NCBI GenBank assembly: GCA_017447265.1
Contig: JAFSOA010000016.1
Span: forward strand, 1 to 64,000
From: Bacteroidales bacterium
GTDB lineage: Bacteria; Bacteroidota; Bacteroidia; Bacteroidales; UBA932
DNA: 64,000 nucleotides
Direction of reading: 5' to 3'
A model generated the notes under the pieces. It did no database searches and was not told the origin of the DNA. It worked only from the letters and a program-made list of their open reading frames with translations. The position numbers and the translations under genes were made by a program. This document shows, piece by piece, positions 1-56,788 of this stretch; the stretch's first letter is position 1, and the number at the start of each line of letters is the position of its first letter.

Positions 1-220
1 GCAGCCTGCGCGTCCGTCCCTTGACGGCGAACTTCTCCCTTTTAGCTGTCGCTACGCTCCGCTAACGGTCGAAGAACCTGCGCCGTCACGAGACGGGACT
101 CCCGCTTGGCCGCGTATTTCCTGCCGCTCACAAATCGTCGCCCCGCAGTCAGCCTCTGCTGCTGTTCGCGCCTGTTGGGCGGCAGAGTTTTCCTCGGCCG
201 GAAACGGAGGGGAGTGAAAG
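1..220. repeat. non-coding, palindrome-rich stretch upstream of parDE
   Basis: No convincing gene is visible. The stretch is GC-rich with several short inverted repeats. Positions 156-183 match positions 17733-17760 at 26 of 28 bases, and both copies contain a hairpin of the type CGCCT-GTT-(G/A)GGCG. It is probably a dispersed intergenic repeat remnant. Confidence 0.4.
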
Positions 221-252
221 TTTGCAAAATATAAGAATAGTTCTTATATTTG
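221..252 (+). promoter_or_regulatory. parDE promoter with overlapping palindromic operator
   Basis: A TTTG at 221-224 and TATATTTG at 245-252 are spaced by 20 nt, matching the Bacteroidetes -33/-7 consensus. A perfect 11-bp inverted repeat (227-237 and 241-251, 3-nt spacer) overlaps the -7 box. This is what is expected for autorepression by a ribbon-helix-helix antitoxin. The ATG at 258 lies about where transcription should start, so the message may be leaderless. Confidence 0.65.
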
Positions 253-257
253 CTATT

Positions 258-506
258 ATGAAGACAACAACCATAGCACTTGGATCGCATCTGGAGGCCT
301 TTGTGCAGGAGTCTGTCACTTCCGGGCGATACAACAATGTCAGCGAAGTAATCAGAGCCGGAGTCAGACTGCTGGAAGAAAAGGAGAAGGCGCTGATGCA
401 GCTCGATGCAGCTCTTCTGGAAGGAGAGATGAGTGGATATACTGTGATGACGAAAGAAGAACTGATCAAAGAGCTCGAAGATGAAGCAAATACTATTCTC
501 CGGTAA
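258..506 (+). CDS. ParD/CC2985-type antitoxin
   Basis: Predicted 82-residue antitoxin of a type II module that neutralises the ParE-like toxin encoded next to it and represses its own promoter. The N-terminal third looks like a ribbon-helix-helix segment, followed by the family-typical stretch with NNVSEVIRAGVRLLEE and an acidic helical C-terminus that would wrap the toxin. The ATG at 258 is preferred over an upstream TTG at 222, because that TTG lies within the -33 element. The gene overlaps the toxin gene by 26 bp, the usual arrangement of co-translated TA pairs. The family call rests on motif and context only. Confidence 0.8.
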   Translation: MKTTTIALGSHLEAFVQESVTSGRYNNVSEVIRAGVRLLEEKEKALMQLDAALLEGEMSGYTVMTKEELIKELEDEANTILR

Positions 507-765
507 GGCCCGGCAAGATTTACTGGCAATCAAGACCTATACGGAATCTCTCTGGTCAGCGCAGCAGTCCATTTATTATCGCGACCTATTGCTGGATGAA
601 GGCTTCTCCATTCCTGAAAGAGAAGATATCATCTCATATCCGACATACAAAGCGTATTCGTATACGCATTGCGGACATCACTTTATCTTCTTTCAATCGA
701 CAGGGAGCGAAATACGAATAGTTCGTATTCTTCACGAGAAAATGAGCTTTGCGAATCATCTTTAA
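481..765 (+). CDS. ParE/RelE-superfamily toxin
   Basis: A 94-residue protein with the shape of ParE toxins: an N-terminal helical hairpin starting with KARQDLLAIKTYTESLW, a central strand with the aromatic patch YTHCGHHFIFFQ, and the C-terminal IRIVRILHEKM typical of ParE. ParE relatives poison DNA gyrase, whereas RelE relatives cleave mRNA; sequence alone favours ParE because of the C-terminal motif and the ParD-like partner. It starts inside the antitoxin gene. A 69-bp hairpin repeat follows shortly after the stop and may end the transcript. Confidence 0.78.
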   Translation: MKQILFSGKARQDLLAIKTYTESLWSAQQSIYYRDLLLDEGFSIPEREDIISYPTYKAYSYTHCGHHFIFFQSTGSEIRIVRILHEKMSFANHL

Positions 766-773
766 AGAGACGG

Positions 774-842
774 AAAACTGACGCTCAAGCCCAATGGCCA
801 CAGAATGGCTCTCCGCTCCGCCGCGGCCATTCTGTGGCCGAG
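774..842. repeat. 69-bp hairpin repeat, copy A (after parDE)
   Basis: Contains a long palindrome, GGCCACAGAATGGC paired with GCCATTCTGTGGCC. It is about 88% identical to positions 1609-1677, which lie directly after the hicAB module. It could act as a terminator or be a dispersed REP-like element. Confidence 0.7.
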
Positions 843-965
843 TCTTTTCACATTTACAATTTTTAATATCCGTTTAAAAACGTTTATAAACGGGTATACT
901 CGTTTTGCCTATGGATAAACTAGGGCATAAAGAATACCTTGCACCGTGAAAAGAAATTCCAATTG

Positions 966-999
966 TTTGAGTTTATATCGCAAAAATGTGCTATATTTG
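966..999 (+). promoter_or_regulatory. hicAB promoter
   Basis: TTTG at 966-969 and TATATTTG at 992-999 (22-nt spacing) fit the Bacteroidetes -33/-7 elements. The hicA ATG follows 15 nt after the -7 box, so the leader is very short. Confidence 0.55.
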
Positions 1000-1013
1000 T
1001 AATCGAATCGAAG

Positions 1014-1205
1014 ATGACGTGGAATGAGTTCAGGAAGATGATTCTCCGCAAGGGTTGGAAATTGGAGCGGCATGGTGGGAAACACGATATCTATCGTAAA
1101 ACTGGACGTGCTGATCCGTTACTGGTAGAAAGGCATTGGAACGAAGAAATCAAACCGAACTTGCAGAAGAGACTTTTCAAACAAGTCGATGGTGACGAAA
1201 AGTAG
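1014..1205 (+). CDS. hicA: HicA-family mRNA interferase toxin
   Basis: A 63-residue predicted RNase toxin that cleaves mRNA independently of ribosomes. It has the compact dsRBD-like HicA pattern: an N-terminal FRKMILRKGWKLER helix-strand, then the strand with GGKHDIYRK that contains the catalytic histidine, and a basic C-terminus. I place the start at the ATG at 1014 because it follows the -7 box at 992-999; a longer reading frame begins upstream of the promoter. The antitoxin gene starts 7 bp downstream, so the two are one operon. Confidence 0.82.
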   Translation: MTWNEFRKMILRKGWKLERHGGKHDIYRKTGRADPLLVERHWNEEIKPNLQKRLFKQVDGDEK

Positions 1206-1211
1206 AAAGAA

Positions 1212-1610
1212 ATGAAAACGCTAGTAATTATAGAAAAAGACCAGACGGGCTATGCCGCCTACACAGACAATTTGACCACTGTCCTTCATGGAAGCGGGAC
1301 TACTGTCCGGAATGCCAAAGAAGAACTGATGGCGGGTTATCATGAATTGCTTGATTATTACGCTGCCAGTGGTGAAACCCTTCCGGAGGAACTCAAAGAT
1401 TTGACCTTTGAGTACAAGTACGATATTTCCGCGATGTTCAATGTGTTCGATTTCCTGAATGCATCCAAGTTTGCCGAATGGGTTGGCATTTCTCCCAGCT
1501 TGATGCGTCATTACAAGAGTGGGAATACCTATATTTCTCAAAAACAGGCAAAGAAAATCGAATCTGGCCTGCACAGGATTGGCCAGGAATTCATCTCTTT
1601 CACTTTGTAA
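1212..1610 (+). CDS. hicB: HicB-family antitoxin
   Basis: A 132-residue partner of the preceding HicA. The N-terminal half is the degenerate RNase-H-like HicB fold that blocks the toxin (MKTLVIIEKDQTGYAAY...). The C-terminal half carries a helix-turn-helix (FAEWVGISPSLMRHYKSG) that would bind the operon's promoter. The toxin-first gene order is normal for hicAB. A copy of the 69-bp hairpin repeat begins at the stop codon. Confidence 0.82.
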   Translation: MKTLVIIEKDQTGYAAYTDNLTTVLHGSGTTVRNAKEELMAGYHELLDYYAASGETLPEELKDLTFEYKYDISAMFNVFDFLNASKFAEWVGISPSLMRHYKSGNTYISQKQAKKIESGLHRIGQEFISFTL

Positions 1611-1677
1611 AACTGACGGTCAAGCCCAATGGCCACAGAATGGCGCTGCGCCTCGCCACGGTCATTCTGTGGCCGAC
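1609..1677. repeat. 69-bp hairpin repeat, copy B (after hicAB)
   Basis: Second copy of the repeat at 774-842, with the same GGCCACAGAATGGC palindrome core and compensated changes in the spacer between the arms. It starts at the hicB stop codon. Confidence 0.7.
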
Positions 1678-1703
1678 ACCCGGGACAGGCGCGGGGAGGG
1701 GAT

Positions 1704-1748
1704 ACAACAAAGCCGCCCTGCATACCGGGGCGGCTTTGTTGTTTTTGC
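1704..1748 (+). terminator. strong intrinsic terminator after hicAB
   Basis: Perfect 15-bp arms (1704-1718 and 1728-1742; ACAACAAAGCCGCCC and its complement) with a 9-nt loop are followed by a T-run. The A-rich 5' flank may let it also stop the convergent lipoprotein operon. Confidence 0.8.
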
Positions 1749-1802
1749 TGTTTTGTCGCCGGCCGCACAGAGCGTCAGACGCGCTGTGCGTGAGAGAAGA
1801 AA

Positions 1803-3164
1803 TTAGAAGGCGAGGGCAGAACGGACTTTTTTAATGGAAGTCTTATTGCCACCGCTCCAAGTACTACTGGTGGAAAAATAGTATGCCGAGCTGATATCTG
1901 TTGATGATTCTGAACATGACCAGTAATCCAAGAACATATTCGTTCCGCCTCTTGATTCAAAAGAATTAAACAGACCCTTATTGCTTAAATCTTTGCAAGC
2001 CTTGATCATTAAATTCCATTGGTTACCTGATGGCAGGAACCAGTCGGAATAGTCCTGGCCTGGCTTGGGGGTGCCATTATTGGCCATCGCCGCCTGGAAG
2101 GCCGGATAGGTGTCGTTGTTGTGTGTCGCATTGTACTGCAGCCCGCTCTCATTTGTAAAACTGTTATTGTAGTAATTACAATTTGTATGGTCAGATTTGG
2201 TGTTTTCAGTTTTCCATTTCATTTCCCCTCCTAATCCGGCATTGCGCATTGCGACGGCTAGGCCGTGAACATATGGCTTTTTCTCGTTCGTATTAGAGCC
2301 CAGATAACTAATCATGGCTACGGCTGAATCACCTGGCGGGGTCGCATCATTATTGATATAGAACTTTCCGTTGTTGGCAATGACGTTGCCGATGGTGGCC
2401 ATTTTGACCGTGCTTTGATAATACTTGCCGGCTTCGGTTGCACTTGCCGTAGCCTTGGCAACGTAGGGCTGGCCGTTGATGGTGGCGCTGAACCAGCATG
2501 TTCCGGCTTCCAATACGGGCAGAACAACATACATTTCGCTGGTAGCCGTTTCCGGCTCAACGGAGGCTAACACATTGCCTCCGGAGTCGCCGACCTGGAA
2601 CTTAGAGACATCCTTGGCTGTGCCGGCGAGATCCTGAATCATGAACTTAAAGATACTGAGTAGCGGCGTGGGTTGTGTGGTTACCTCAAGGGATGACGTG
2701 CTGGTGTGGAAGATACCTTCCCCGATGCGGAAATCCAGTAGTGTATCAAGCACTCCTTTCTGTTTTTCCAGTAAATCGGCCGTTACCTTACTATTTGAGT
2801 AGTCGTATAGATTCTTTCCGGAGTAAGGATAGATGATAGTACATGTCGTACCGTCAGTTAAATTTGATTTTACTTCGAATGAAATGGTAGCCGTACCATT
2901 ACCGTCTACATGCGTAATCTCTGCATTGACCGAATAAGTGCCATCTTTCTTATAGTGAAGGGCGAGATGTTCACCTACGGCCCAGGTCGCCGTGATCTTG
3001 TTGTCGCCGTTATCGGCCACGGCCTTTGTTATCGGAGTCTTCGGCGCCAACTGGGCAGTGATCGTAATCATTCCGTCCTTCCCGGTCGGCTGATTGTCCA
3101 TTTCCATCGTGTTGCAGGCCGCGATTGCAAGGACCATTGCAACGAATCCTAATATCTTTTTCAT
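1803..3164 (-). CDS. fimbrillin-like lipoprotein with Lcl-type C-terminal domain
   Basis: A 453-residue predicted surface lipoprotein. The SPII signal ends in a lipobox at about residue 17 (LAIAAC). Residues ~30-250 resemble the N-terminal domain of Bacteroidetes fimbrillin/Mfa2-like lipoproteins (ITITAQLAPKTPITKA, ATWAVGEHLALHY). The C-terminal ~150 residues look like the Lcl/DUF1566 fold, with DWFLPSGNQWNLM, DYWSCSESS and the final KKVRSALAF. The start at 3164 is chosen over the ATG at 3170 because an AAGGAGGT ribosome site sits 6 nt before it. It is the last gene of a six-gene operon that starts near 6156, probably exported and displayed at the surface. The exact ligand is unknown. Confidence 0.75.
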   Translation of the reverse strand: MKKILGFVAMVLAIAACNTMEMDNQPTGKDGMITITAQLAPKTPITKAVADNGDNKITATWAVGEHLALHYKKDGTYSVNAEITHVDGNGTATISFEVKSNLTDGTTCTIIYPYSGKNLYDYSNSKVTADLLEKQKGVLDTLLDFRIGEGIFHTSTSSLEVTTQPTPLLSIFKFMIQDLAGTAKDVSKFQVGDSGGNVLASVEPETATSEMYVVLPVLEAGTCWFSATINGQPYVAKATASATEAGKYYQSTVKMATIGNVIANNGKFYINNDATPPGDSAVAMISYLGSNTNEKKPYVHGLAVAMRNAGLGGEMKWKTENTKSDHTNCNYYNNSFTNESGLQYNATHNNDTYPAFQAAMANNGTPKPGQDYSDWFLPSGNQWNLMIKACKDLSNKGLFNSFESRGGTNMFLDYWSCSESSTDISSAYYFSTSSTWSGGNKTSIKKVRSALAF

Positions 3165-3179
3165 GGTCATACCTCCTTG

Positions 3180-3311
3180 CTAATAAGTAAACGGATTACC
3201 GCCGTTGGAATAATCGGTGGGATCACCCAGGCTCTGGCAGATGACGCCTTCCGGCTTCAGTTCCACCGTCTCAATGTGGGGTGTTACGTAGTGTAGTTTG
3301 TGGGTTGTCAT
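3180..3311 (-). CDS. small Y-x-P peptide, copy 1
   Basis: A 43-residue peptide that I do not recognise as a named family. It shares the core Y-x-[TSA]-P-x3-[TV]-[VLI]-E-[LV]-K-x-[EQ]-G with the peptides at 5848-6018 and 61795-61920 (here YVTPHIETVELKPEG), then a cysteine and an aromatic last residue. No signal peptide is visible. Its TAG stop lies 2 nt before the lipoprotein gene's AAGGAGGT, so translation of the two is probably coupled. Similar short proteins are, from memory, common next to fimbrillin-like lipoproteins in this order; a role in their assembly or sensing is a guess. Confidence 0.65.
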   Translation of the reverse strand: MTTHKLHYVTPHIETVELKPEGVICQSLGDPTDYSNGGNPFTY

Positions 3312-3321
3312 AGGAACAACT

Positions 3322-3459
3322 TTATTTGGTTTGATTTTTATCTTGATGTGTTTCTTTTTCTTTTCGCAGAGCCCAGAAGACAGACAGCACAATCGCAGGG
3401 ACCCACACGAAAAGAGTGAGCCCTGAGATGATGAGAAGTGTCAGTGTGTCTTTGTCCAT
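3322..3459 (-). CDS. very small single-span membrane peptide, copy 1
   Basis: A 45-residue reading frame with one hydrophobic segment (residues ~5-31) and a charged lysine-rich tail. It matches the 34-residue peptide at 6030-6134 along its length: M-D-x-x-T-L-x-L, G-x-T-L-x-V-W-x-P-A-I-x-L, W-A-x-R-K. That match, and the same position 10-11 nt ahead of a Y-x-P peptide gene, are the grounds for calling it real. It begins 27 nt after the upstream lipoprotein gene. The orientation N-out/C-in is inferred from the basic tail. The function is unknown. Confidence 0.65.
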   Translation of the reverse strand: MDKDTLTLLIISGLTLFVWVPAIVLSVFWALRKEKETHQDKNQTK

Positions 3460-3486
3460 AAAGGAGGGGAGATTCACCGGATGGGA

Positions 3487-5835
3487 TTATTGATTATCAA
3501 CTGTCCAGTTGGAAGGGATGCCATTAACACCTGTTGTCCAGTCGTTCATCGTAGAAGCCTTTACAAATGTTCCGCTTGCTGCGACGCCCGAAAGCCAATC
3601 TATAGTGCAATTGGTAGCCGAAATGTTTGTTGCAAGACACTTGATGTAGTTAAGTAAAGTACAGCTATAGAACATTCTTTGATAGCAATTATCGGCAAGC
3701 GTTGTTGCGGGCAAGTCCGGCGCTGCGGTAAGGCTACTGCAGTTATTGAACATATCAAGATAGCATTGTTTAGCCAAAGTCTGTGCTGGCAGTGTCGGTG
3801 CAGTTGCAAGGCCGGTACAGTTGAAAAACATTTCTTTATAGCAGTAATCTTGAAGCGTTTCAGCAGGCAAGGTCGGAGCAGCGGTTATCTTGCTGCAACC
3901 CTTGAACATACCGAAGTAGCAAGATGGCTGTAGTGTCGTTAATGGTAACAAGTTATTGGGAATTGTCTCCAAATTGCTGCAATTCCGGAACATATACTGG
4001 TAGCACCCTTCAGCCAAAGTGGATACACTCCCCAAGAAGTCTGTCGGAATCTCGGTCAACCCCGTGCAACCGTCAAACATATTTTCGTAACAATCCTTGG
4101 CTAATACGCTTGCCGGCAACAAAGACGCAGGAAGCGCAGTCAAACCTGTGCAACCGGCAAACATGTACGCGTAACATAACCATTTCAATGTCGTTACAGG
4201 CAGCAGGCCCGCAGGGATAGAGGTCAGTTGGGTACAATTCATGAACATATAGCGATAGCAGACTTCGTTCAAAGTGGTTACATTGTTGAATAAGCCTGCC
4301 GGGATGGCGGTTAACCCTGTGCAATTCTTGAACATACCTTCATAACAATCTTTAGCCAGCGTTGCTGCGGGCAGCAGATTCTGGGGAATCGTTGTCAATC
4401 GTGTGCAGCCTTCAAACATCAAATAGTAGCAATATTTAGCCAGATTCGTTGATGGTAGATCCGGGACCCTGCTTAGGGAAGTGCCATGGAACATTTCCCG
4501 ATAGCAATACTCTGTCATTTGAGTGGCAGGCAGTTCCGGCGCTACGGACAATCCCGTGCAATCATAGAACATCCCCAAATAACAGTCGTTTTTCAATGTT
4601 GTGGCCGGCAATACCAGCGACTTTATTTCGTGACTCTTGATTTTCGTTCCCGATTTGCCATCATAATTAGTTTTGCCTTTAAACAGATTACAGAAGGTAT
4701 AGTTTGCATCAAGGGTCAAATCGGCTGTAGCGAAGTTCGAACCTTTCACAAGGCTCATGATATTGCCATAAACATAGCAAGAATCGGAAGACTCGAAACT
4801 ATAATACTTATCCATAGATTCTGCATATGACGTGTTTGTGCCGCGGAACTTGATTCTGTCGCCCGCGTTTTCGAGCGTAACGGACCCAGTGTATGTCTCC
4901 CAAGAACCACGATTGATTTGATATTGTAACGTACGATCAGCAGGCGTCCCATATTTCGTGAACGATACGGTAGTCCCATCATTAATGGCCTCGAAAGTGA
5001 GCGGAGAAGTCAACTCATTGAACATATATATAGAGATGTTGTATAATGTTCCATTATTGAGGGTTGTGTTGCTTTTCTCATAATAATATTTATTTCCATT
5101 CTGGTGGTGGGTAGCCTCAATGACAAGCTTTTCATTACTAAACCCCGGGAGCGCTATATACAAACAGAGCTCGCCGCTTTGAGTGCTGTTTGGAGAATAT
5201 GTGTTTTCCAATGTGAGGCCCGTAAGTGAAAAGACCCCACTGCTACCATAATGCAATGTGACACTTTCAGGACGAAAGAAATTGCCCATTTCATCATAAA
5301 AGACAAATCTAATTATTGCCTGTTGGCTGACAAAAAATGCATTTTCGGTCGTCACTTCATAGCTGTCAATATGATTTACTATGACAGTATCCAAGGCATA
5401 GTTACACTTGCTGCTGATGCTTGTTGACCTCGTGTTAAGCGTACCATCTTGTCCAGCATAGTTGTTTGTTCCGTATGAGAGAATAAGTTGATCATTCTCC
5501 GCAACAGGACCATGAAGGATTCCTGTCAACGTGGTTGAATTCGAACCCACCGTTTTCGGCTGCAGGGTACCGGTCAAGGCTACCCCTTTTGTTTTATTAT
5601 ATACACTTACTTGTTCATTATTTGCCCAGGTGGCAAGAATGCTTTGGGTGTCGTGATCATAGTCAAGTACCTTTGTCGTAGCGGCTTTTGATGCATTCAC
5701 CGTAAGGACAAAGGTCTCGTCTTGACCGGGAACGATTTCTTCCGGGTCGGGCTGCAGGTTATCAACGCATCCGGAAACGAGGGAAAGAAGCGCAGAAAAG
5801 GCTACGAACAAACAGAAATAATATACTTTTCTCAT
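3487..5835 (-). CDS. fimbrillin-like lipoprotein with 12 leucine-rich CYxxMF repeats
   Basis: A 782-residue surface lipoprotein with an SPII signal (lipobox LVSGC, residues 19-23). Residues ~40-290 form a fimbrillin-like domain (ATWANNEQVSVYNK). From ~410 to ~725 there are twelve tandem repeats of about 25 residues built on LPATTLA-x3-CYxxMFxxCTxL-x2-P, a BspA/DUF285-like leucine-rich-repeat pattern. It ends with GTFVKASTMNDW and GIPSNW, the usual end of such Bacteroidales proteins. Relatives bind host or matrix proteins. The start is supported by AGGAGG 8-9 nt upstream, which overlaps the stop of the small peptide gene before it. The regular cysteines may be packed in the repeat core. Confidence 0.8.
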   Translation of the reverse strand: MRKVYYFCLFVAFSALLSLVSGCVDNLQPDPEEIVPGQDETFVLTVNASKAATTKVLDYDHDTQSILATWANNEQVSVYNKTKGVALTGTLQPKTVGSNSTTLTGILHGPVAENDQLILSYGTNNYAGQDGTLNTRSTSISSKCNYALDTVIVNHIDSYEVTTENAFFVSQQAIIRFVFYDEMGNFFRPESVTLHYGSSGVFSLTGLTLENTYSPNSTQSGELCLYIALPGFSNEKLVIEATHHQNGNKYYYEKSNTTLNNGTLYNISIYMFNELTSPLTFEAINDGTTVSFTKYGTPADRTLQYQINRGSWETYTGSVTLENAGDRIKFRGTNTSYAESMDKYYSFESSDSCYVYGNIMSLVKGSNFATADLTLDANYTFCNLFKGKTNYDGKSGTKIKSHEIKSLVLPATTLKNDCYLGMFYDCTGLSVAPELPATQMTEYCYREMFHGTSLSRVPDLPSTNLAKYCYYLMFEGCTRLTTIPQNLLPAATLAKDCYEGMFKNCTGLTAIPAGLFNNVTTLNEVCYRYMFMNCTQLTSIPAGLLPVTTLKWLCYAYMFAGCTGLTALPASLLPASVLAKDCYENMFDGCTGLTEIPTDFLGSVSTLAEGCYQYMFRNCSNLETIPNNLLPLTTLQPSCYFGMFKGCSKITAAPTLPAETLQDYCYKEMFFNCTGLATAPTLPAQTLAKQCYLDMFNNCSSLTAAPDLPATTLADNCYQRMFYSCTLLNYIKCLATNISATNCTIDWLSGVAASGTFVKASTMNDWTTGVNGIPSNWTVDNQ

Positions 5836-5847
5836 CGTATAATCCTC

Positions 5848-6018
5848 CTAATACCAAACTTGATTATCTTTTGAATAGCCATTCAGGGTCCCTGACAATG
5901 CATTAATGGTTTCAGTTTGTGTACTTACGCAGAGCATTCCCTGCGTCTTCAACTCCAATGTCTCCGATGTTGGAGAGATGTACATCATTTTGTGATTCGT
6001 GTTCATATTTTTGATCAT
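5848..6018 (-). CDS. small Y-x-P peptide, copy 2
   Basis: 56 residues from the ATG at 6018, or 52 from the ATG at 6006; I cannot decide between them. The core YISPTSETLELKTQG matches the Y-x-P peptides at 3180-3311 and 61795-61920. A cysteine follows the core and the last residue is tyrosine. Its TAG stop is embedded in the ribosome-binding site (TAGGAGG) of the lipoprotein gene downstream, so the two are translationally coupled. It lies 11 nt after the small membrane peptide gene. The function is unknown. Confidence 0.65.
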   Translation of the reverse strand: MIKNMNTNHKMMYISPTSETLELKTQGMLCVSTQTETINALSGTLNGYSKDNQVWY

Positions 6019-6029
6019 TGATTTCCAAA

Positions 6030-6134
6030 TTAGTCTTTCCGCACAGCCCAATAACTGGTCAGCAGGATGGCGGGAATCCATACGAGAAGGGTGACTCCGG
6101 CGAGGATGAAAAGGATGAGCGTGACGGTATCCAT
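6030..6134 (-). CDS. very small single-span membrane peptide, copy 2
   Basis: A 34-residue peptide consisting almost entirely of one transmembrane helix (TLILFILAGVTLLVWIPAIL) and ending in RKD. It is clearly related to the 45-residue peptide at 3322-3459. It is the first gene of the operon, starting about 22 nt after a TAGTTTTG -7 box. Conservation between the two copies at the amino-acid level despite many base differences argues for a translated gene. The role is unknown; it could be an inner-membrane partner of the lipoprotein or of the adjacent membrane-bound regulator. Confidence 0.65.
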   Translation of the reverse strand: MDTVTLILFILAGVTLLVWIPAILLTSYWAVRKD

Positions 6135-6155
6135 ACGTACTTGTATAATTTCCCG

Positions 6156-6163
6156 CAAAACTA
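6156..6163 (-). promoter_or_regulatory. -7 box of the six-gene lipoprotein operon
   Basis: TAGTTTTG on the minus strand matches TAnnTTTG. No TTTG is present at the -33 position, which is instead occupied by the phased direct repeats at 6174-6243. This suggests an activator-dependent promoter. Confidence 0.55.
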
Positions 6164-6173
6164 CAGCTCCCGC

Positions 6174-6243
6174 GCGTCAACACTGTCCCCGGTGCGTCAA
6201 CGCGCTGTCCCTTTTGCGTCAACTTTGTCCCTTCTGCGTCAAA
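6174..6243. promoter_or_regulatory. four phased direct repeats between divergent promoters
   Basis: GCGTCAA(C) occurs at 6174, 6194, 6216 and 6236, spaced by 20, 22 and 20 bp (about two helical turns). The first three are each followed by TGTCCC. The array fills the gap between the -7 boxes of the lipoprotein operon (minus) and of the AraC-type regulator (plus). It is a likely binding array for that regulator. Confidence 0.65.
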
Positions 6244-6259
6244 AACGCGAAATTTTTCT

Positions 6260-6267
6260 TATTTTTG
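6260..6267 (+). promoter_or_regulatory. -7 box of the AraC-type regulator gene
   Basis: TATTTTTG matches TAnnTTTG. The ATG at 6276 follows within 9 nt, so the transcript is nearly leaderless. The fourth direct repeat covers the -33 region, which fits autoregulation. Confidence 0.55.
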
Positions 6268-6275
6268 AACCCGGT

Positions 6276-7406
6276 ATGACGCCTTTGTCCATCCATCTCT
6301 TCGGTTTGGCTGCAGCCGTATTCATCACCACGGGACTGGTGGTGGCGGCGGTGCGCTGGTTCCACATGTGCCAGCCCTTCGACAAGGATCCCCGCTATTA
6401 CTACCCGGGCCGTCCCTTCGTGGTGGGCATCTACCTGAACGCACTGGTCCTGATCCCTTACGCGATCCATCCGGAGAGTGCCGACGCCTGGCTTCTGGCA
6501 CGCATCTATTTCTTCCCCGTCACCCTCTTCCACTGCATCGTCCTGCTTTTCTCTTATTTCGGGATCATCATGCACTGGAAGCAGTGGCGGCTGTCCCTTT
6601 TCCTGGTGGGAGGTCCCGTGGCGTTCTTCCTGCTGGCCGCGTTGGTGCTGGCCGTATGGCCCGGGGAACAGTTCAGCCAGGAGGGGAAGGTCGCCGGGTA
6701 CATCTTGTATTCCCTGGGCGTCATCACGACGCTCGCCTGCCTGCTGGCCATGCAGCTGGTGCTGCGCGAGGCACGGCGCATCGACATGGATGAATACTCC
6801 AACCCGGACGACTTCCCGGTGGTTTCGGCCCGGCGCTGGATGCTGCTGGTCGTGTTGAATCTGGTGCTCTGCTGGACGGGTGCTTTTTCCAACAACCGCG
6901 TGGTGCTGGCGGCGGTCATGCTGCTGCTGGCGGCTTCGGCGCTGACCTTCCTCATCACGGTGCTGCACCCGAACCGCAACCGCCGGCTGGAAGACGAGAC
7001 GGCCGAAGTCGAGGCCGTGGCGCAGCTGGGCCTGTCGCCGGATCCCGAACCAGCTCCGGAGAACGGGCCGGAAGAGCCGCTCTACCAGCGCAGTCTTCCC
7101 CTCCAGAAGCGCCTGGAGATTCTCTCGGCGGTGACGACGGTCGTGGAGGAGCAGGAAGCCTTCCTGGAACCGCACCTGACCCTGCAGCAGGTGGCCGAGC
7201 GCAGCGGCTACAACCGTTCCTACGTGGCCGGACTCATCAAATCGGAGCTGGGCGGCTTCTTCGCCTATGTGAACCGGGTCCGGCTGGAACACGTGGACCG
7301 CTACCTGCAGGAGCATCCGACGGCCACCGTCCTGGAGGCCGCCGAAGAATCGGGCTTCATCTCGCGCAAGGCCTATTATTCGGCCAAGGCGAAGCTGCAG
7401 GGCTGA
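6276..7406 (+). CDS. membrane-anchored AraC-type transcriptional regulator
   Basis: A 376-residue protein with about seven hydrophobic segments in residues 5-235, a charged proline-rich linker (~235-270), and a C-terminal DNA-binding domain. The first helix-turn-helix is at LTLQQVAERSGYNRSYVAGL and the second at AAEESGFISRKAYYSAKA. The bundled-membrane plus AraC layout suggests a sensor that acts on DNA directly from the inner membrane. The ATG at 6276 is chosen because it follows the -7 box; an upstream in-frame start would overlap the opposing promoter. It is divergent from the duplicated lipoprotein cassettes and is the obvious candidate to bind the four direct repeats and control them. 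Confidence 0.75.
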   Translation: MTPLSIHLFGLAAAVFITTGLVVAAVRWFHMCQPFDKDPRYYYPGRPFVVGIYLNALVLIPYAIHPESADAWLLARIYFFPVTLFHCIVLLFSYFGIIMHWKQWRLSLFLVGGPVAFFLLAALVLAVWPGEQFSQEGKVAGYILYSLGVITTLACLLAMQLVLREARRIDMDEYSNPDDFPVVSARRWMLLVVLNLVLCWTGAFSNNRVVLAAVMLLLAASALTFLITVLHPNRNRRLEDETAEVEAVAQLGLSPDPEPAPENGPEEPLYQRSLPLQKRLEILSAVTTVVEEQEAFLEPHLTLQQVAERSGYNRSYVAGLIKSELGGFFAYVNRVRLEHVDRYLQEHPTATVLEAAEESGFISRKAYYSAKAKLQG

Positions 7407-7409
7407 TCC

Positions 7410-8183
7410 TTAAAACGGTACGGTCAGCCCGTCGAAAGCGGGCTGGAGGGAGAAGGGGAGGACGGAGAGTTCTTCTGTGAGTTCTGCGTGCCGCGGGAGC
7501 ATGTGCGACAGGTGTGTCAGGTAGCTCTGTCCGGCACCGACACGGCGGCAGATGTCGATGGCTTCTTCGAGGGCGTAGTGCGAGATGTGCCGGCCGCGCT
7601 TGACGGTGTTGAGGACGAAGACCTTGAGACCGCGGAGTTTGTCGAACTCGCTTTCGGGGATGTAGTTGGCGTCGGTGACGTAGGCGAGGTCGCCGAAGCG
7701 GAAGCCGAGGATGGGCAGTTTGTAGTGCATGGCCCGGATTGGGACGACAGGAACGCCGTCGATGGCGAAGGGCAGGCTGGTAATCAGGTGGATGTCCATT
7801 TCCGGCGCGCCGGGGTAGGGCTTTTCGGCGAAGACGTAGTAATATTCTTTCTTCAGGGATTCCAGCACGTTGGCTTCGCAGAAGATGGGGAACGAGCGTT
7901 TCTCGAGATAGTTGAACGAGCGCACGTCGTCGAGACCGCCGGTGTGGTCTTTATGGTTGTGGGTCAGGAGGATGGCATCGAGGTGGCGGATGTCTTCGCG
8001 GAGCATCTGCTGCCGGAAATCCGGCCCGGCATCGATCAGGAATGTCTTTCCTTCATACTTGACCAGGGCCGAGCACCGCAGCCGCTTGTCTCTCGGATCT
8101 TTCGACGTACACACTTCGCACTGGCATCCGATCATCGGAATGCCCTGCGAAGTTCCAGTCCCTAAAAACGTTATACTGTTCAT
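7410..8183 (-). CDS. PhnP-like metallo-beta-lactamase-fold phosphodiesterase
   Basis: A 257-residue cytosolic hydrolase. The N-terminus has LGTGTSQGIP and a cysteine pair (IGCQCEVC). The metal site is THNHKDHTGGLDD at ~74-86, and the later ligands are the aspartate in YVTDANY and the C-terminal histidine in SYLTHLSH. This pattern matches the PhnP/lipoate-linked 'MBL fold hydrolase' group that cleaves cyclic or linear phosphodiesters; the natural substrate in Bacteroidales is not established. It ends 3 bp after the convergent regulator gene. Confidence 0.78.
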   Translation of the reverse strand: MNSITFLGTGTSQGIPMIGCQCEVCTSKDPRDKRLRCSALVKYEGKTFLIDAGPDFRQQMLREDIRHLDAILLTHNHKDHTGGLDDVRSFNYLEKRSFPIFCEANVLESLKKEYYYVFAEKPYPGAPEMDIHLITSLPFAIDGVPVVPIRAMHYKLPILGFRFGDLAYVTDANYIPESEFDKLRGLKVFVLNTVKRGRHISHYALEEAIDICRRVGAGQSYLTHLSHMLPRHAELTEELSVLPFSLQPAFDGLTVPF

Positions 8184-8193
8184 GATCTGTCAA

Positions 8194-8335
8194 CTATTGA
8201 TGGAAGTGTGAGGGTATATGTCTTGAAGACCCTAACCACCCTCGGTTGATAGCGGGAGGGGCCCATGCGTCAGCATGGGAGGGAGACGCGAAGCGTCGGT
8301 CTGAAAGACATATACCGGAGCACTGGAGTCAATAG
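8194..8335. repeat. nested palindromic element filling the mtaB/MBL gap
   Basis: The outer arms are CTATTGA/TCAATAG (8194-8200, 8329-8335), followed by a perfect 12-bp pair GGTATATGTCTT/AAGACATATACC (8213-8224, 8305-8316). Inside are two small hairpins (CCCATGC-GTCA-GCATGGG, 8262-8279; GACGC-GAA-GCGTC, 8284-8296). The element ends at the mtaB stop codon. It could be a small mobile palindrome or a structured RNA in the transcript. Confidence 0.6.
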
Positions 8336-9598
8336 CTAAATAGTTATTTCAACGATTTTGTTAATCAATTCTTTATCGTACGGCCGCTCGATGCGGAGGT
8401 AGTTTTCCGTGTAACCGAACATCTTGCCGCCTTTCATCGTGCTCTCGAAGAGCACCTTCGCCGGACGGCCGGCATTGGCCGCCGTGAACGCCGCATGAAG
8501 CCGGTCGGAGAGCACCTGGAGGCGGGCGGCGCGGGCCGTCTTCACACTTTCCTGCACCTGGTCGGGCCGCTCGGCCGCCGGCGTACCCGCGCGGCGCGAA
8601 TAGGGGAAGATGTGCAGGAAGGCCGGCCGGACGCGCTCCAGCAGCCGGTAGGTCTCTTCAAAGTCCGCATCCGTCTCGCCCGGAAAGCCCACGATCACGT
8701 CGATGCCGAAGAAAACGCGCGTGCCGCGCTCCTCCGGCTGCTCGAGGATGTCCCGGATCAGCGCGATCTTCTCTTCGAACATCTCCGCCGTGTAGCGGCG
8801 GTGCATCGCCTTCAGGGTGCGGTTGCAGCCCGACTGGATGGGGATGTGGAAGTGCGGCAGGAACTTCGTGCCCGTGGCGATCCAGCGCAGGATCTCTTCC
8901 GTGAGCAGGTTCGGCTCGATGGAGGAGATGCGGTAGCGCTCGATGCCCGGCACGGCGTCCAGGGCCTTGAGCAGGTCGAGGAAACTTTCGCCCGTGCTCT
9001 TGCCGAAATCGCCCGTGTTCACGCCCGTGAGCACCACCTCCACGATGCCCTGCGCCGCAATGGCGCGGGCCTGCTCCACGATCTCGGCGATGGGGATGTT
9101 GCGGCTCTTGCCGCGGGCCAGGGGCACGGTGCAGTAGGCGCAGTGGTAGTCGCAGCCGTCCTGTACCTTCAGGAAGGAGCGGGTGCGCTCTCCCGAAGAA
9201 TAGGCCGGGAAGAAGCTCTCCACGGCGTCGATCTCGCAGGAATAGCCCTGCGAACCGCGTTCGCCGCCCAGCAGCAGCTTCACCAGCTCGCCCTTGCGGT
9301 CGGCGCCGACGACCAGGTCCACGCCGTCGATCGACAGGATTTCCTGCGGCTTGAGCTGCGCGTAGCAGCCCGTCACGGCGATCCTGGCGCCGGGCGCGGT
9401 CCTGTGGAGCTTGCGGATGAGGTTGCGGCATTTCTTGTCGGCGTGCTCGGTCACCGAGCAGGTGTTGACCACGAAAACGTCGGTGCCAGGTCCGGGCGCA
9501 GCCTCTTCGTAGCCCGCCGCGGCGAACTGCCGGGCGAGGGTCGAACTTTCCGAGAAATTGAGCTTGCAGCCGAGGGTGATGAACGAGACTTTATGCAT
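8336..9598 (-). CDS. mtaB: tRNA (t6A37) methylthiotransferase MtaB
   Basis: A 420-residue radical-SAM enzyme that adds a methylthio group to N6-threonylcarbamoyladenosine at tRNA position 37. It starts with TLGCKLNFSES, the UPF0004 domain carrying the auxiliary Fe-S cysteines (C11, with others in VNTCSVTEHADKKC). The radical-SAM CxxxCxxC is at GCDYHCAYC, and a TRAM-like C-terminus follows. The size is normal. It acts after TsaD, which is encoded 5 kb away. It overlaps folB by 8 bp in the same direction. Confidence 0.9.
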   Translation of the reverse strand: MHKVSFITLGCKLNFSESSTLARQFAAAGYEEAAPGPGTDVFVVNTCSVTEHADKKCRNLIRKLHRTAPGARIAVTGCYAQLKPQEILSIDGVDLVVGADRKGELVKLLLGGERGSQGYSCEIDAVESFFPAYSSGERTRSFLKVQDGCDYHCAYCTVPLARGKSRNIPIAEIVEQARAIAAQGIVEVVLTGVNTGDFGKSTGESFLDLLKALDAVPGIERYRISSIEPNLLTEEILRWIATGTKFLPHFHIPIQSGCNRTLKAMHRRYTAEMFEEKIALIRDILEQPEERGTRVFFGIDVIVGFPGETDADFEETYRLLERVRPAFLHIFPYSRRAGTPAAERPDQVQESVKTARAARLQVLSDRLHAAFTAANAGRPAKVLFESTMKGGKMFGYTENYLRIERPYDKELINKIVEITI

Positions 9599-9938
9599 AG
9601 ACGACGGTGACGGAAGAACTCTCGACCTTACCGTCGAGGGGGGGATTGTACTTGGTGACGGTCAGCTCCGCGTAACTGATGCGCGGGAAGCGGGCGATGA
9701 GGGTGTCGAGCATGCGGCTGGCGAGGTGCTCCAGCAGATTGGCCGGGACTTCCATCTCCGCGCGGATGTGCTCGTAGATCGCGCTGTAGTCGATGGCTTC
9801 GCGCAGGTCGTCGCTCCGGGCCGCCTTGCGCATGTCGTAGTCGTAGGCGAAATCGACCCGGAAACGGTTGCCTTCCCGGCGCTCGCTTTCGAGGCAGCCG
9901 TGGTAGGCGTAAAATTCCATATTGTTCAGTCGCACCAT
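9591..9938 (-). CDS. folB: dihydroneopterin aldolase
   Basis: A 115-residue enzyme of folate synthesis that converts 7,8-dihydroneopterin to 6-hydroxymethyl-dihydropterin and glycolaldehyde, working as a homo-octamer. Family landmarks are MEFYAYHGCLESERREGN at the N-terminus, DYSAIYEHI in the middle, LLEHLASRM with the conserved glutamate, and the end VTKYNPP. It is the full usual length. It overlaps mtaB by 8 bp and follows rsmI by 3 bp, so it belongs to a tamB-rsmI-folB-mtaB transcription unit. Confidence 0.88.
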   Translation of the reverse strand: MVRLNNMEFYAYHGCLESERREGNRFRVDFAYDYDMRKAARSDDLREAIDYSAIYEHIRAEMEVPANLLEHLASRMLDTLIARFPRISYAELTVTKYNPPLDGKVESSSVTVVYA

Positions 9939-9941
9939 AAG

Positions 9942-10676
9942 CTAACGGTTTTTTAGATCCTTCGCTTCGCTCAGGATGACAAAGACGCACGGGCGCTTGC
10001 CGATGACAAAGCCCTTTTTGCGCTCTTTTTGCCAGTCGGCGATGGATTTCGTGCGGATGAATTCGGTGGGGCAGGTGATGTCGGCGGCGACGCACAGGCG
10101 CGTGGACGGGCGGCAGGTCTCGGTCAGGTCTGCCAGCAGGGCGTCGTTGCGGTAGGGCGTCTCGATCATAATCTGCGACTGGTTGAGGCGCGCCGACGTG
10201 CGTTCCAGCGTGCTGATGGCCTCGCGCCGTGCCGGCGCTTTCACCGGCAGATAGCCCGTGAAGGCAAAGCACTGCCCGTTCAGCCCCGAAGCCATGAGGG
10301 CCATCATCAGCGAGGAAGGCCCGACCATCGGCACCACGTCCACCCCCTTGCGGTGCGCCAGCTCCACCAGCAGCGCGCCGGGATCGGCCACGGCGGGCAG
10401 GCCCGCTTCCGAGATCAGGCCCGCGTCCTGCTCGTCCAGCCGCGCCGCGAAGGCTTCAATCTGCTCGCGTGGCGTGTGTTCGTTGATCTCCAGCAGCTCC
10501 AGCTCCTCCACGTGCCCTTTCCAGCCGGCGGCGGAGAGAAAACGGCGCGCCGTGCGGAGCTCCTCCACGAAGAAGAGCCGCAGCGCGGCGATCCGCTCCA
10601 GCACGGGGGCAGGCAGGATGTCACTCGGTGCGTATTCGCCGAGGGGCGTTGGGATCAGGTAAAGCTTGGCTTTCAT
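9942..10676 (-). CDS. rsmI: 16S rRNA 2'-O-methyltransferase RsmI-like
   Basis: A 244-residue tetrapyrrole-methylase-fold protein that would methylate the ribose of C1402 in 16S rRNA using SAM. Motifs are YLIPTPLGE at the N-terminus, the SAM-binding LISEAGLPAVADPG (~87-100), VPMVGPSS and QIMIETPYRN. The last residues, VILSEAKDL, are encoded by a dispersed repeat (9957-9981), so the native C-terminus has been replaced or extended. The first 56 bp overlap the end of the tamB-like gene in another frame. Confidence 0.85.
   Translation of the reverse strand: MKAKLYLIPTPLGEYAPSDILPAPVLERIAALRLFFVEELRTARRFLSAAGWKGHVEELELLEINEHTPREQIEAFAARLDEQDAGLISEAGLPAVADPGALLVELAHRKGVDVVPMVGPSSLMMALMASGLNGQCFAFTGYLPVKAPARREAISTLERTSARLNQSQIMIETPYRNDALLADLTETCRPSTRLCVAADITCPTEFIRTKSIADWQKERKKGFVIGKRPCVFVILSEAKDLKNR
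9957..9981. repeat. dispersed palindrome (ATCCTTCGCTTCGCTCAGGA type)
   Basis: Matches the inverse of 50304-50330 and a variant at 60973-60999. Here it forms the last codons of rsmI. It is a small REP-like hairpin. Confidence 0.6.
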
Positions 10677-13600
10677 GGGCGGGAGTCTTGATGTGGAATA
10701 TCTTGCGCCAGAGTTCCTTGAAAGAGTTGAAATCTTCCTGGTAGACGATGCCGGCGCCGTTGCGCTGGCTCTGGTCGAGGTAGTTGCTGTACTGGTCGGC
10801 GGAGTGGGAGAAGAGCGTCAGGCGCAGCTGTCCCTGCCGGTTGAGCTTGATCTCGATGTCGAGGTCGCCCACGATGTCGCTGCGGCTCGACGACATGTAC
10901 TGCCGGTTGCCGATGTTGCCGTTGATGATCACGCGGTTGTTGAAGAGCTGCGTGGACACGGCGACGTCAAAGATGTTGCGCCCCGACTCGGTGGGCTGGT
11001 AGTTGAAGCCCAGGTCGAGCGGGATGTCGAGTTGCCGGAAGATATTGTTGAGCTGGCTCGACATCAGTTCGGACGCGTTCGAGAAGAGCAGGGTGGTGCT
11101 GTTGACGATGCCCGACTGCTCGTCCGGGACGAAGCCGCCGGAAATCAGCAGGGCCAGGGCCTGCTTCATGCGCTTGTCTTCGGTGTTGAGGGCCGTCTCC
11201 ACCCGTCCTTTCGTGGTCGGGTCGAGGTCCGGAATGTCGACATAGAAGCGGATCTCGGGATTCTCGAGCTTCCCGGTCACGCTGATGCCGCAGTCCACGT
11301 TGCGGCGCATGCTCACGGCGGTGGAGTCGGCGATCAGCGGGCTGATGGACGCTTTGGTGCGGTAGGTCGCGGTCAGGTCGAGGTCCGACTGCATGACGTC
11401 GCCGTTGAAGGCGATGGTGCCGCCCGGGTTGATGGAGAAATCGCGCGCGGTGATGCCCAGCATGCCGAAGTGGTAGCTGCCGCTCTGCACCTCGTAGTCG
11501 CCCTTGATGTCGAAATTGTCGCGGTCGACGGTGATGCCGATCCGGCCGTTGCCGCGAGCCTTGAGGATGTCGCCGGTATTCTTGTCGACCTCCAGCTGGA
11601 TCTCCGCGTCGGGCGTGGCGTTGAGGCGCAGGTTGACGCTGACGTCCGTGCCGCCGCCCTTGGCCTTTTCGGGCGCGTTGTGGGCCTGGATCACGGAGTC
11701 GATCAGGCTGATCTTCGATTCGTTGTTGATGAAGGTCAGCAGCGACTTGTTGTCCGAGGCGGAGGCACCGAGGGGAATATGGATGGTGGTGTTTTGGGTG
11801 GGAGTCAGGTTGAGGCTCAGGCGGATCTTGTTGAGCGGGCCGGAGACGCGGACCGTTCCGTCGGCGAAGGCGCGTCCGTAGAAGCTGTTGTTGTCCTCGC
11901 TGCCGGTGTTGAGCGCCATCATGTCCTGGAGGTCGATGCGCAGGTTGAGGCGGATGTCGTTGAAGTGGTCGTACGGAATGCCGCCGGTGAGTTGCCCTTC
12001 ATGACCGAAACGGTCGAAAAGCTGGACGTTCTCGAAGGTGACGCCGTCGTCACGCACCTGGAAAGGACCGTCGGCGATGTAGTTGACCTGGGTGAAGTCG
12101 AGCTTGAACTTGAACTGGTTGAGGCGGGTGTTCTCGCTGCTGATGGCCAGTTTGTTGAGCGGTCCGTGGGCCAGGATGTGGCCGGAGACCGTGCCGTCCA
12201 TGTCGGACGCCAGGCCGGTGACGAGCGGCTCGACGATGCCGAGGGCCAGCGAGTCGAGCCGGACGTCGAGGTCCAGGTGCTTGTCAGAGGGCCGCAGCGT
12301 GGCGTTGGCGATGACCGGATGCCGCTCGCCCATGGTATTGTCGATGGAGAAGATGAACTGCTTCGCAGGGTCGTCCCAGCGGCTCTGCATCAGGAAATGG
12401 CCCATGTCGATGCCTACGGCTGACACATAGCGGGCGTACAGGTCGAAGAGGATGCCTTTCTCGGGCCCCGTCAGGGCGAAGGCCTCGCCCTGGCCGGTCA
12501 GCAGGCCCTGCAGGTTGAGGGGTTGGGTCAGGAAAGAGTTGGCGAAGCCCAGATCGAAGTCGTTCATCATCAGGCGCACCGTATCGGTGAGCTTCGGGCC
12601 GATGACGCCGCCGGCATAGAGGCTCTGTTCGCCGTAGCTGAGGGAGAAATCTTCGATCTTGATGTCTTCCTTGCGGTAGTGGACGGAAGCGGGGGCGAGT
12701 TCCCACGGATGCCCGGCGATGGCCAGTTCGGAGGGCAGCAGGTCGATGCGGACCAGGTAGGGGTCCTCGTCGGCATCGGGGAAGGAGACCCGGGTGTTGA
12801 GCCGGGCGTAGGTGTCGGGGCCCTCGTCGTTGTGGAAAGCGAGCTGCAGGTTGATGATCGAATCGGCCTGGGCGTCGATGTCGATGTGTTCGGCCATCAT
12901 GCCGGCGGCCTGGAGCCGGTCGACGTCGACGAAGGCGAGGATGCGTTCGCCTTCGGTCAGGCAGCGCAGCTGGAGGTTCCGGAGCAGGATCTTCTCGACG
13001 GCCGCCAGCTCCGAAGACACGTTGAGGGTGATTTCGTCGTTGATCAGGTCGGCGCGGACGGTGGAGTAGGGCGACACGAACAGCGACGGGAAGAAGAAGT
13101 CGGTGAGCGGCTTCAGGTTGAGGACCTGCAGGTTGAACGAGCCGAACTGTTCGGGGTTCGGCACGTCGTCCTTCCGGCTGTGGTGGCCGCCGAACAGGTG
13201 TTCGAGGTTGTCCTGGTAGAGCAGGTGGATGGATTCTTCGAGGAAATCCGTTACGAAGATGTTGCCGTCATACACGCCCCGGAACAGTCCGCTGTCGATA
13301 CGGATCGCATAGAGTCCGTCTTCCTCCTTGGAATCCAGGGCGATGTCGCCCAGGCGGAATAGCTGGCCCGGCAGATAGGCCTGCAGGTCGCTGAGCTTCG
13401 CCTGGCCCAGGAATGCGCCGTCCGCTGTCTGCACGATGTCGGCGGCGAGTTTGAGTGACACGGCGGCACTGTCGCGCTGGTCGAGGTGGATGGCGTTCAG
13501 GTCCACGTGGTCGACGTCGAGGTCTACGACGTAGCGGCTTTCCTTTCCTTTGCCGCCCAGATTGAGGTCGGCGCGGCCCGCCAGCACGAGGTTCGGATCC

Positions 13601-51206: not shown

Positions 51207-51393
51207 GCGAAAGTGTAAAGTTTTTGACACCCTGCTGTAAATCAGTCGTTTATAGGGTGTGTGGTACAAATGTGATACGGCCGATGGAGAGGTTTTCGTA
51301 AGGAAATCCGAGCAAAAATAAATGTGATTGGGGCCGAAATAATTTTCAAAAATCTTCAATTTTTTTGTCCGGTCCGTCAAATAGCATAAGAAA

Positions 51394-51423
51394 ACCCTCC
51401 GGAATCTCACGACTGCGGAGGGT
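51394..51423. terminator. hairpin next to the gene fragment
   Basis: Perfect 8-bp arms flanked by A-rich (5') and T-poor (3') sequence; on the minus strand it is followed by T residues, so it suits the minus-strand fragment. Confidence 0.5.
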
Positions 51424-51464
51424 AAAATGGTTAGGTTTGGCGGAAACGCCAGAGAGAGTTTCGA

Positions 51465-51552
51465 CTACGGCTCACCGCCACCGGCCGCAGCAGCGGCCCA
51501 CTTGACTTCGGCCAGCATAGTGCCGGACTTCTCGCCGGTGCTGGAGTTGACG
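51465..51552 (-). pseudogene. 3' fragment duplicated from the gene at 54862-55648
   Basis: 87 of 90 bases of 51463-51552 match 54860-54949. It would encode the same last residues (VNSSTGEKSGTM...GGGEP, stop), but nothing of the gene is present upstream of 51552. It is a remnant of a duplication or a rearrangement endpoint. Confidence 0.7.
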
Positions 51553-51645
51553 ATGCAAAAGATAGACTGTATTTAAGGTCAATTAGTTACGTGATTCGTG
51601 GTACAAATGCGGTACAGAATCTAACGAAACAAGGATTAACAAGCA

Positions 51646-53118: not shown

Positions 53119-53249
53119 ATCTCATATACTTTTGACTTACAAAAATACGGATTATTTCCGAGTAACGCCAAGATTCTTTGCAGTTTGTAATGGGTTGCAA
53201 CCGTATGCGCTGGCGCGTTCCGGCCGCGTTCGCGGGACGTTCCCCCTAC

Positions 53250-53290
53250 ACAGTAAGACCCCTGAAACCCATAAGGTCTGCAGGGGCCTA
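53250..53290. terminator. possible alternative hairpins
   Basis: CCCCTG/CAGGGG (53259-53264, 53281-53286) competes with AGACC/GGTCT in the same stretch, between two minus-strand genes. Confidence 0.3.
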
Positions 53291-53297
53291 TTTCGTT

Positions 53298-53313
53298 CGA
53301 TAAACAGGGAATT
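53298..53313. repeat. 16-bp direct repeat, copy 1
   Basis: CGATAAACAGGGAATT, identical to 54119-54134. Each copy lies 2-3 bp beyond the stop codon of a minus-strand gene. Confidence 0.5.
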
Positions 53314-53316
53314 TAA

Positions 53317-54012: not shown

Positions 54013-54118
54013 TGTCAGTGCGGTAAATTACGATTTATCGGACGCAATTTACGCATTCCCCTTGAAAACTCAATAAAGCACCGCCAACAAATACGATGCT
54101 GCCGGAGCTTGTTTATGC

Positions 54119-54134
54119 CGATAAACAGGGAATT
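54119..54134. repeat. 16-bp direct repeat, copy 2
   Basis: Identical to 53298-53313. The two copies bracket the DUF5714 gene and its upstream region. Confidence 0.5.
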
Positions 54135-54136
54135 GG

Positions 54137-54739: not shown

Positions 54740-54806
54740 AACCATCATGCAAATTTCGATTTAACGGCCTAAAGTTAATCATTATCCGCCACTTGTCCAA
54801 ACGAAA

Positions 54807-54832
54807 GGCCCCCTGGAGCGAATCCAGAGGGC
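54807..54832. terminator. hairpin after the interrupted gene
   Basis: GCCCCCTGGA/TCCAGAGGGC with one mismatch and a 4-5-nt loop, downstream of the minus-strand pseudogene. Confidence 0.5.
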
Positions 54833-54861
54833 TTGACAGGTTCAGGTCTCAGTCCCGGAGA

Positions 54862-56652: not shown

Positions 56653-56673
56653 TATCAGTATTGTTAGGTGGTA

Positions 56674-56681
56674 CAAAGTTA
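56674..56681 (-). promoter_or_regulatory. -7 box of the LuxR-type gene
   Basis: TAACTTTG on the minus strand. It supports the GTG start at 56652. Confidence 0.5.
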
Positions 56682-56762: not shown

Positions 56763-56788
56763 GTAGAGATGGTAGAGGCTTGTTTGTG

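Follow-up and report, generated by a model that had tools for sequence, protein, structure and literature searches.

Two tandem units of three genes lie near the start of the window (the whole 64,000-nt stretch of DNA analysed), each made up of a very short peptide gene (peptide A), a second short peptide gene (peptide B) and a lipoprotein gene, the product of which is here also called the cargo. A regulator gene lies next to the first unit on the opposite strand, and the region between them holds tandem direct repeats and a promoter-like box (Table 1). All six frames of the original prediction (A1, B1, lipoprotein 1, A2, B2 and lipoprotein 2) were recovered where it had placed them, on the minus strand, as was its A-to-B spacing, with 11 nt in unit 1 and 10 nt in unit 2. 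The genome to which the window belongs (G000) is a 2.13-Mb draft of 19 contigs that is 78.7% complete. The nearest relatives having the locus, G033 and G026, are drafts of uncultured Bacteroidales, one of them from red deer.

Table 1. Genes and putative control features of the locus, with coordinates in the window
Feature	Position	Strand	Description
Terminator-like hairpin after lipoprotein 2	1710-1745	-	Homology to G033 picks up inside the hairpin
Lipoprotein 2	1803-3170	-	455 aa; C-terminal domain of Lcl type, weak Mfa likeness; replaced in G033
Peptide B2	3180-3311	-	43 aa; first 25 codons common to G033, remainder unrelated
Peptide A2	3322-3459	-	45 aa; retained in G033 and G026
Lipoprotein 1	3487-5835	-	782 aa; repeats of PARCEL / BspA type; replaced in G033 and G026
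Peptide B1	5848-6018	-	56 aa; Y-x-x-P, without span
Peptide A1	6030-6134	-	34 aa; single predicted span, basic C-terminus
Putative -7 box, TAGTTTTG	6156-6163	-	29 nt before A1; Bacteroidetes-type
Tandem direct repeats, GACGCA-N4-GGACA	6164-6245	-	Cores start at 6240, 6220 and 6198; candidate operators
Regulator gene	6276-7406	+	376 aa; seven predicted spans followed by a putative AraC-type helix-turn-helix

The kinship of the two A peptides is not random, as a search of the whole 2.1-Mb draft with A1 returns A2 at an E value of 8.7e-9 and 56% identity. The C-terminal signature W-A-x-R-K, which had been proposed as a shared motif, does not extend to the whole family; the A2 peptides of G033 and G026 read R-A-L-R-K at this position. 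The dN/dS between copies had been set beforehand as a check, and A1 against A2 gives 0.20 (NG86). Over the first 25 codons of B2, compared with G033, three synonymous changes and one non-synonymous change give a ratio of 0.09. The small frames are thus genuine, conserved and under purifying selection. By the same NG86 method, A2 of the window gives 0.44 against G033 (4 synonymous and 6 non-synonymous changes) and 0.22 against G026. Of the 105 pairs formed by 15 A genes, 102 have a pN smaller than pS. As judged from these sequences, the A genes are real and purifying selection acts on them.

Searches with a single A sequence found it in 3 of 100 relatives, own genome counted, and a profile built from five A peptides gave matches in 14 of 398 sampled genomes of the family, representing 3 of 25 genera. 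Discarding one match, a chance frame within a lipoprotein gene of G286, leaves 13 of the 398 sampled genomes, with 14 loci and 17 A genes between them. No Pfam, NCBIfam or described name was found for peptides A and B, and no description of a module of A, B and regulator was found in the open-licence literature of PubMed Central.

Both lipoproteins carry lipoboxes (IAAC and VSGC). The C-terminal repeat domain anticipated in lipoprotein 1 is borne out by a match to TIGR02167 'PARCEL' (E 1.4e-15; 56.6 bits against a cut-off of 30). The Lcl-type domain assigned to lipoprotein 2 is weak when matched directly (Lcl_C, E 0.68), yet it is upheld by way of a homologue that the same genome encodes and that matches Lcl_C at 1.2e-9 and, at 9.5e-13, the C-terminal half of lipoprotein 2. 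The description of both proteins as fimbrillin-like lipoproteins stands for the lipoprotein signal but not for the family: in lipoprotein 2 a match to Mfa_like_1 (PF13149) spans positions 169-233 at 20.7 bits, below the cut-off of 27, and in lipoprotein 1 the same search gave no match. Pfam searches of the lipoproteins gave no fimbrillin match, and a profile search of solved structures likewise reached no fimbrillin. A fimbrillin-like identity is weakly supported by these matches. In the search of solved structures with a profile of the cargo N-termini, weak antibody-like matches (best E 0.026) were treated as noise.

The regulator gives seven segments in a hydropathy scan at a threshold of 1.4, and HTH_18 matches residues 296-359 of the translated 365 (E 2.5e-6; 28.1 bits, against a Pfam cut-off of 33.6). 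A homologue of this regulator adjoins A at all 14 A loci, divergently at 12 and codirectionally at two (G026:C7, and G424, where about 1.5 kb separates regulator and A). Around paralogues of the regulator, ten further loci were retrieved and searched for A, with none found (0/10); A is therefore not essential to this type of regulator.

The TTGACGCA repeats between the regulator and A1 are spaced 20 and 22 bp apart, with a degenerate fourth copy from 6180, and form the sole tandem cluster of the motif in the 64-kb window. Their intergenic position and 20-22 bp interval agree with the direct-repeat operators of AraC-type regulators, and they are likely to be operators of this regulator. A generalised form of the motif gave 15 matches at 9 of 12 loci within the 200-bp regions upstream of A, against about 0.2 expected from dinucleotide shuffles (about 0.1 for each of two groups), a significance that is optimistic because the motif was defined after viewing all upstream sequences, so that no group is a true hold-out. 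The opposite strand of the upstream regions has no match, and none of the 500 shuffles reaches the observed sum; the motif is missing upstream of A in 3 of the 12 regions (L102, L104 and L105). With a looser motif applied to 35 loci, tandem clusters were found upstream of A at seven loci and in two places elsewhere. In a separate scan of window positions 1-8000 with Rfam, a single Thr_leader match scored 27.9 against 55 bits and was rejected as sub-threshold.

Between these repeats and A1 lies TAGTTTTG, which we take to be a Bacteroidetes-type -7 box of consensus TAnnTTTG. At 10 of the 12 loci where A is the first gene, a box of this kind precedes it by 16-47 nt, with 0.38 expected from shuffles, and thus makes A the promoter-proximal gene; none was found before A2. 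This placement raises the alternative that A is a translated leader, for which translation or early position in the mRNA would matter and not the peptide itself. At most loci A is indeed the first frame, starting about 20-40 nt after the promoter box, and the DNA of A1 is nearly unchanged between species (no nucleotide difference from G033 and one from G026). However, constraint on A is seen at the protein level across genera where synonymous sites are saturated, the span and basic tail are conserved, and A2 sits in the middle of the operon. A role as leader only is therefore improbable.

Peptide B has further copies in the own genome. A search of this genome with B2 returned B1 at an E value of 1.1e-4 and six other places at E values of up to 10, and a B profile located eight places in the draft. 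All eight B genes located by the profile alone lie upstream of a lipoprotein open reading frame (ORF). The six units scanned other than those of the locus have no A beside them (0/6). In the window, the gap from B to the lipoprotein gene is 9 nt for B2 and 12 nt for B1. B follows A at 13 of the 14 A loci, the exception being G372, where regulator, repeats and A are found without B. At 12 of these 13 loci an ORF for a lipoprotein or secreted protein comes directly after B; at the 13th, G275, the cargo ORF is taken to be present from 80% DNA identity to G312 over 1.4 kb. A scan of 19 loci, picked in part via the regulator or A, gave 27 B genes. For 26 of these an ORF starts between 20 nt before and 66 nt after the B stop codon, 21 of these with a lipobox by pattern, and the 27th (L019) likewise has a lipoprotein ORF. 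At three loci (L101, L103 and L106) B and cargo are repeated alone.

Outside the family, B-like peptides occur in five other genomes of 198 in the order, one of which (G507) has ten. An ORF of at least 80 aa was found within 250 nt of the B-like peptide at only 4 of 16 of these loci, one of them not secreted-looking, so the coupling of B to cargo is not general there.

Comparison with the nearest relatives indicates that the cargo of the locus is exchanged. The window and G033 are 98.8% identical over 1.7 kb of the left flank (1-1718) and 98.6% identical over 6 kb of the right flank (5988-12000), and long blocks at 96-98% continue out to 50 kb. Compared at their own slots, both lipoproteins are unrelated in DNA. 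Between the flanks only 223 bp (3237-3459), holding A2 and 25 codons of B2, is retained, at 93%. The two genomes thus have different surface genes within near-identical flanks, the arrangement of an exchangeable surface allele. The seams are sharp: homology ends at the A1 stop codon (6030), restarts exactly at the A2 start codon, is lost again past the Leu-Cys codons of B2 and picks up once more within the terminator-like stem. In G026 the flanks are 84-91% identical, and A1 and the first half of B1 are common at 95-100%; homology ends after '..MLCVST' of B1 (about 5917), and a third lipoprotein occupies slot 1. The G026 contig ends within B2, which places its slot-2 cargo outside the comparison. 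The slots take cargo of different kinds, with lipoprotein 1 of the window resembling the second lipoprotein of G033 (36% identity) and the first lipoprotein of G033 resembling cargo of G026. As a separate observation, positions 51221-64000 find no homologous counterpart in the part of the G033 contig that was retrieved, the preceding 45 kb being mostly colinear.

Silent cassettes were searched for as second DNA copies of the window and G033 cargoes in G000, G033, G026 and G001, drafts whose completeness of 76-89% could hide such cassettes. None was found beyond one residual match in G000, at 74% over about 160 bp. As a control, two B-lipoprotein units of G000:C10 were compared and are absent as DNA from G033, G026 and G001, with the exception of an interspersed repeat and of a single match, at 70% over about 180 bp, close to the query start. 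These units also turn over; turnover is therefore not confined to the window locus, and any claim that the site is special is weakened.

The sharpness of the seams at the A2 start, the A1 stop and just past the Leu-Cys codons of B raises the possibility of dedicated site-specific shuffling (integron-like, by an invertase or by a diversity-generating retroelement), with the edges of A and B as recombination sites, and the neighbouring toxin-antitoxin pairs also end in palindromic repeats. However, the seams vary by locus (at the A stop, inside B, or 8 nt before B), the cargoes are unrelated proteins and not mutated copies, and no reservoir copies were found in the own genome. Additionally, the draft has two matches to the tyrosine recombinase family PF00589, on contigs C11 and C6, with none on the window contig, and nothing links the palindromic repeats to the cargo swap; the integron/attC idea was rejected. 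Dedicated shuffling is, on balance, very improbable.

Exchange is also apparent on the regulator side. G312 and G190, which belong to another genus than the window genome, are 79% identical in the flank beyond the regulator and 93% identical over 7.8 kb from B onward, whereas their blocks of regulator and A have no DNA match and the regulators are of different types. Unbroken identity between the two starts 8 nt before the B start codon. Conversely, G312 and G306 have flank, regulator and A in common (85%) but not the first cargo, and a match at about 70% over some 270 bp still links the second G312 unit to units of G306. These two patterns indicate that two modules recombine at the A-B seam.

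Sequence divergence follows the same division. In Mantel comparisons across ten loci, the seven-span part of the regulator correlates with A (r 0.52, p 0.0014), and this is unchanged with genus partialled out. The regulator does not correlate with B (r -0.15, p 0.76, with B distances taken from 28-residue pieces), and A against B gives r 0.29 (p 0.067), or r 0.53 (p 0.0018) when the near-duplicate G026 locus is added to make 11 loci. Distances from the regulator helix-turn-helix were left unused, the L107 regulator being cut by a contig end. Linkage alone may explain the co-variation of A and regulator in part. B is as closely linked yet does not follow the regulator, which counts against linkage as the whole of the A signal. 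Taken with the separate exchange, the co-variation assigns A to the switch and B to the cargo.

This division bears on the original prediction of a three-gene display cassette, in which A, B and lipoprotein would form one unit and the peptides would help in export, assembly or sensing. Part of it is upheld, in that the frames are real and B is coupled to the lipoprotein; A goes with the regulator instead. The constant distance of 10-11 nt between A and B in both tandem units, the duplication of A along with B and lipoprotein in the window, and the lack of a regulator of its own for A2 would fit a single unit. Against a single unit stand the regulator and A without B in G372, the exchange of regulator and A separately from B and cargo (G312 and G190), the units of B and cargo that have no A beside them, both in the own genome and at L101, L103 and L106, and the co-variation of A, but not B, with the regulator. 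The tandem duplication of all three genes, moreover, was seen in no genome other than that of the window and those of its two nearest relatives. A single display unit of all three genes is thus unlikely.

The reading preferred here, to which a probability of roughly 55% is given, is a two-module surface locus in which a membrane AraC-type regulator with its partner A drives an operon of recombining modules of B and lipoprotein. The gene order, its conservation, the purifying selection on A, the operator-like repeats, the promoter boxes and the exchange of either module, with seams that fall at an edge of A or within B, are established at the level of sequence. The control module would comprise the membrane-embedded regulator with its repeated operators, together with a promoter and, in first position of the operon, A; the display module would comprise B with a lipoprotein or secreted protein, at times in tandem. 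The regulator would sense a signal via its seven spans, bind the repeats and turn the operon on. Peptide A may enter the inner membrane and tune the regulator, as feedback or as a stabilising partner; such an action in the membrane is suggested by co-inheritance, co-variation and topology. Peptide B may work with the lipoprotein translated just after it, be it in assembly, in targeting or in early folding. The first half of B, which is constant, would serve the cell machinery, and its variable second half would change with the cargo; an action with the cargo is suggested by adjacency and by this variation. Cargo would pass between strains by homologous recombination, anchored by the control module upstream, A2 and the 5' part of B2 in the middle, and the downstream flank. 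A cargo inserted between these anchors would come immediately under the existing sensor as a new surface protein. That A2 sits within the operon and lacks its own regulator counts against this two-module reading.

A more tentative extension, held to be possible but less probable than the two-module reading itself, is a plug-and-socket system. The seven-span sensor and A would form one inherited control complex with the A-B seam as the plug, unrelated surface proteins would bring their own B, or a new sensor and A would be placed over old cargo, and the variable half of B would be the cargo-matched partner of the lipoprotein. If true, two annotation-invisible peptide families would define a general surface-diversifying architecture of gut Bacteroidales. 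Encounters of Bacteroidales in the gut and rumen with food particles, phages and hosts are decided by surface lipoproteins. Should the two-module reading hold, the two micropeptide families mark sites of surface rewiring, and A would be a membrane micropeptide inherited with, and probably tuning, a membrane-embedded one-component regulator. The A-B seam could serve as a marker for finding such loci and for tracking surface-protein turnover in metagenomes.

Membrane micropeptides that tune membrane regulators include MgrB with PhoQ, and partners of the ToxS/TcpH type. By analogy, A would likewise be a small protein of one span, its gene next to that of a sensor or transcription factor embedded in the membrane; it differs in that the regulator of the window is putatively of AraC type with seven predicted spans, and in that the partnership is a putative one. 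The Mfa1 and FimA fimbrillins are comparable in being lipoproteins, in operon context and in the weak Mfa_like_1 match of lipoprotein 2. However, that match is below cut-off, no pilus assembly or tip genes were seen in the operon of the window, and the cargo C-termini are Lcl-like or leucine-rich repeats.

For the exchange itself, the nearest precedent is that of fimA alleles in Porphyromonas gingivalis, which are swapped whole between strains by homologous recombination within near-identical flanks, other genes of the fimA locus being swappable as well (PMC3953592). Both cases have a Bacteroidales surface-protein gene replaced within near-identical flanks. In P. gingivalis the alleles are variants of a single fimbrillin encoded in a pilus operon (PMC3953592), whereas here unrelated lipoproteins occupy the slots. 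Additionally, the constant parts of the window locus are micropeptide genes, and regulator and A can be swapped instead. The terms 'AraC' and 'small open reading' are absent from the main text of the fimA paper (PMC3953592). PARCEL repeats (TIGR02167), such as those carried by lipoprotein 1, are described as an element that horizontal transfer and shuffling have disseminated in surface proteins; the abstract of that paper treats the repeat domain and makes no mention of a micropeptide or regulator module (PMC2996958). Exchangeable surface loci are already known; the micropeptides and the exchange on the switch side are filed as the new part.

Several further observations concern units and peptides elsewhere. 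A third B-lipoprotein unit lies at 61795-64000 of the window, with a B that does not have the conserved Cys. At L103 (G306) two tandem B-lipoprotein units have identical B proteins, and their DNA is 82% identical over the first 0.8 kb and mostly diverged beyond. At an apparently orthologous regulator site, a B-lipoprotein unit is found in L093 (G001:C13) and none in L090 (G000:C11). Loci L122-L144 (G507 and others, of another Bacteroidales family) have at least 10 short Y-x-x-P peptides with W/D/E-rich tails, mostly with no ORF found immediately downstream.

Repeats also lie at the left end of the window. An interspersed repeat of roughly 134 bp lies at 68-201, with copies on contigs C10, C3, C1, C14 and C4 of the own genome, the C10 copy at the end of a B-lipoprotein region, and others in G033, G026 and G001. 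Two palindromic repeats, at 774-841 and 1609-1676, fold at about -30 to -35 kcal/mol and have further copies in G033 and G026. The first is located at the 3' end of a ParDE pair (222-765), and the second at the 3' end of a HicA and HicB-like pair (939-1610), the second protein of which has no Pfam match.
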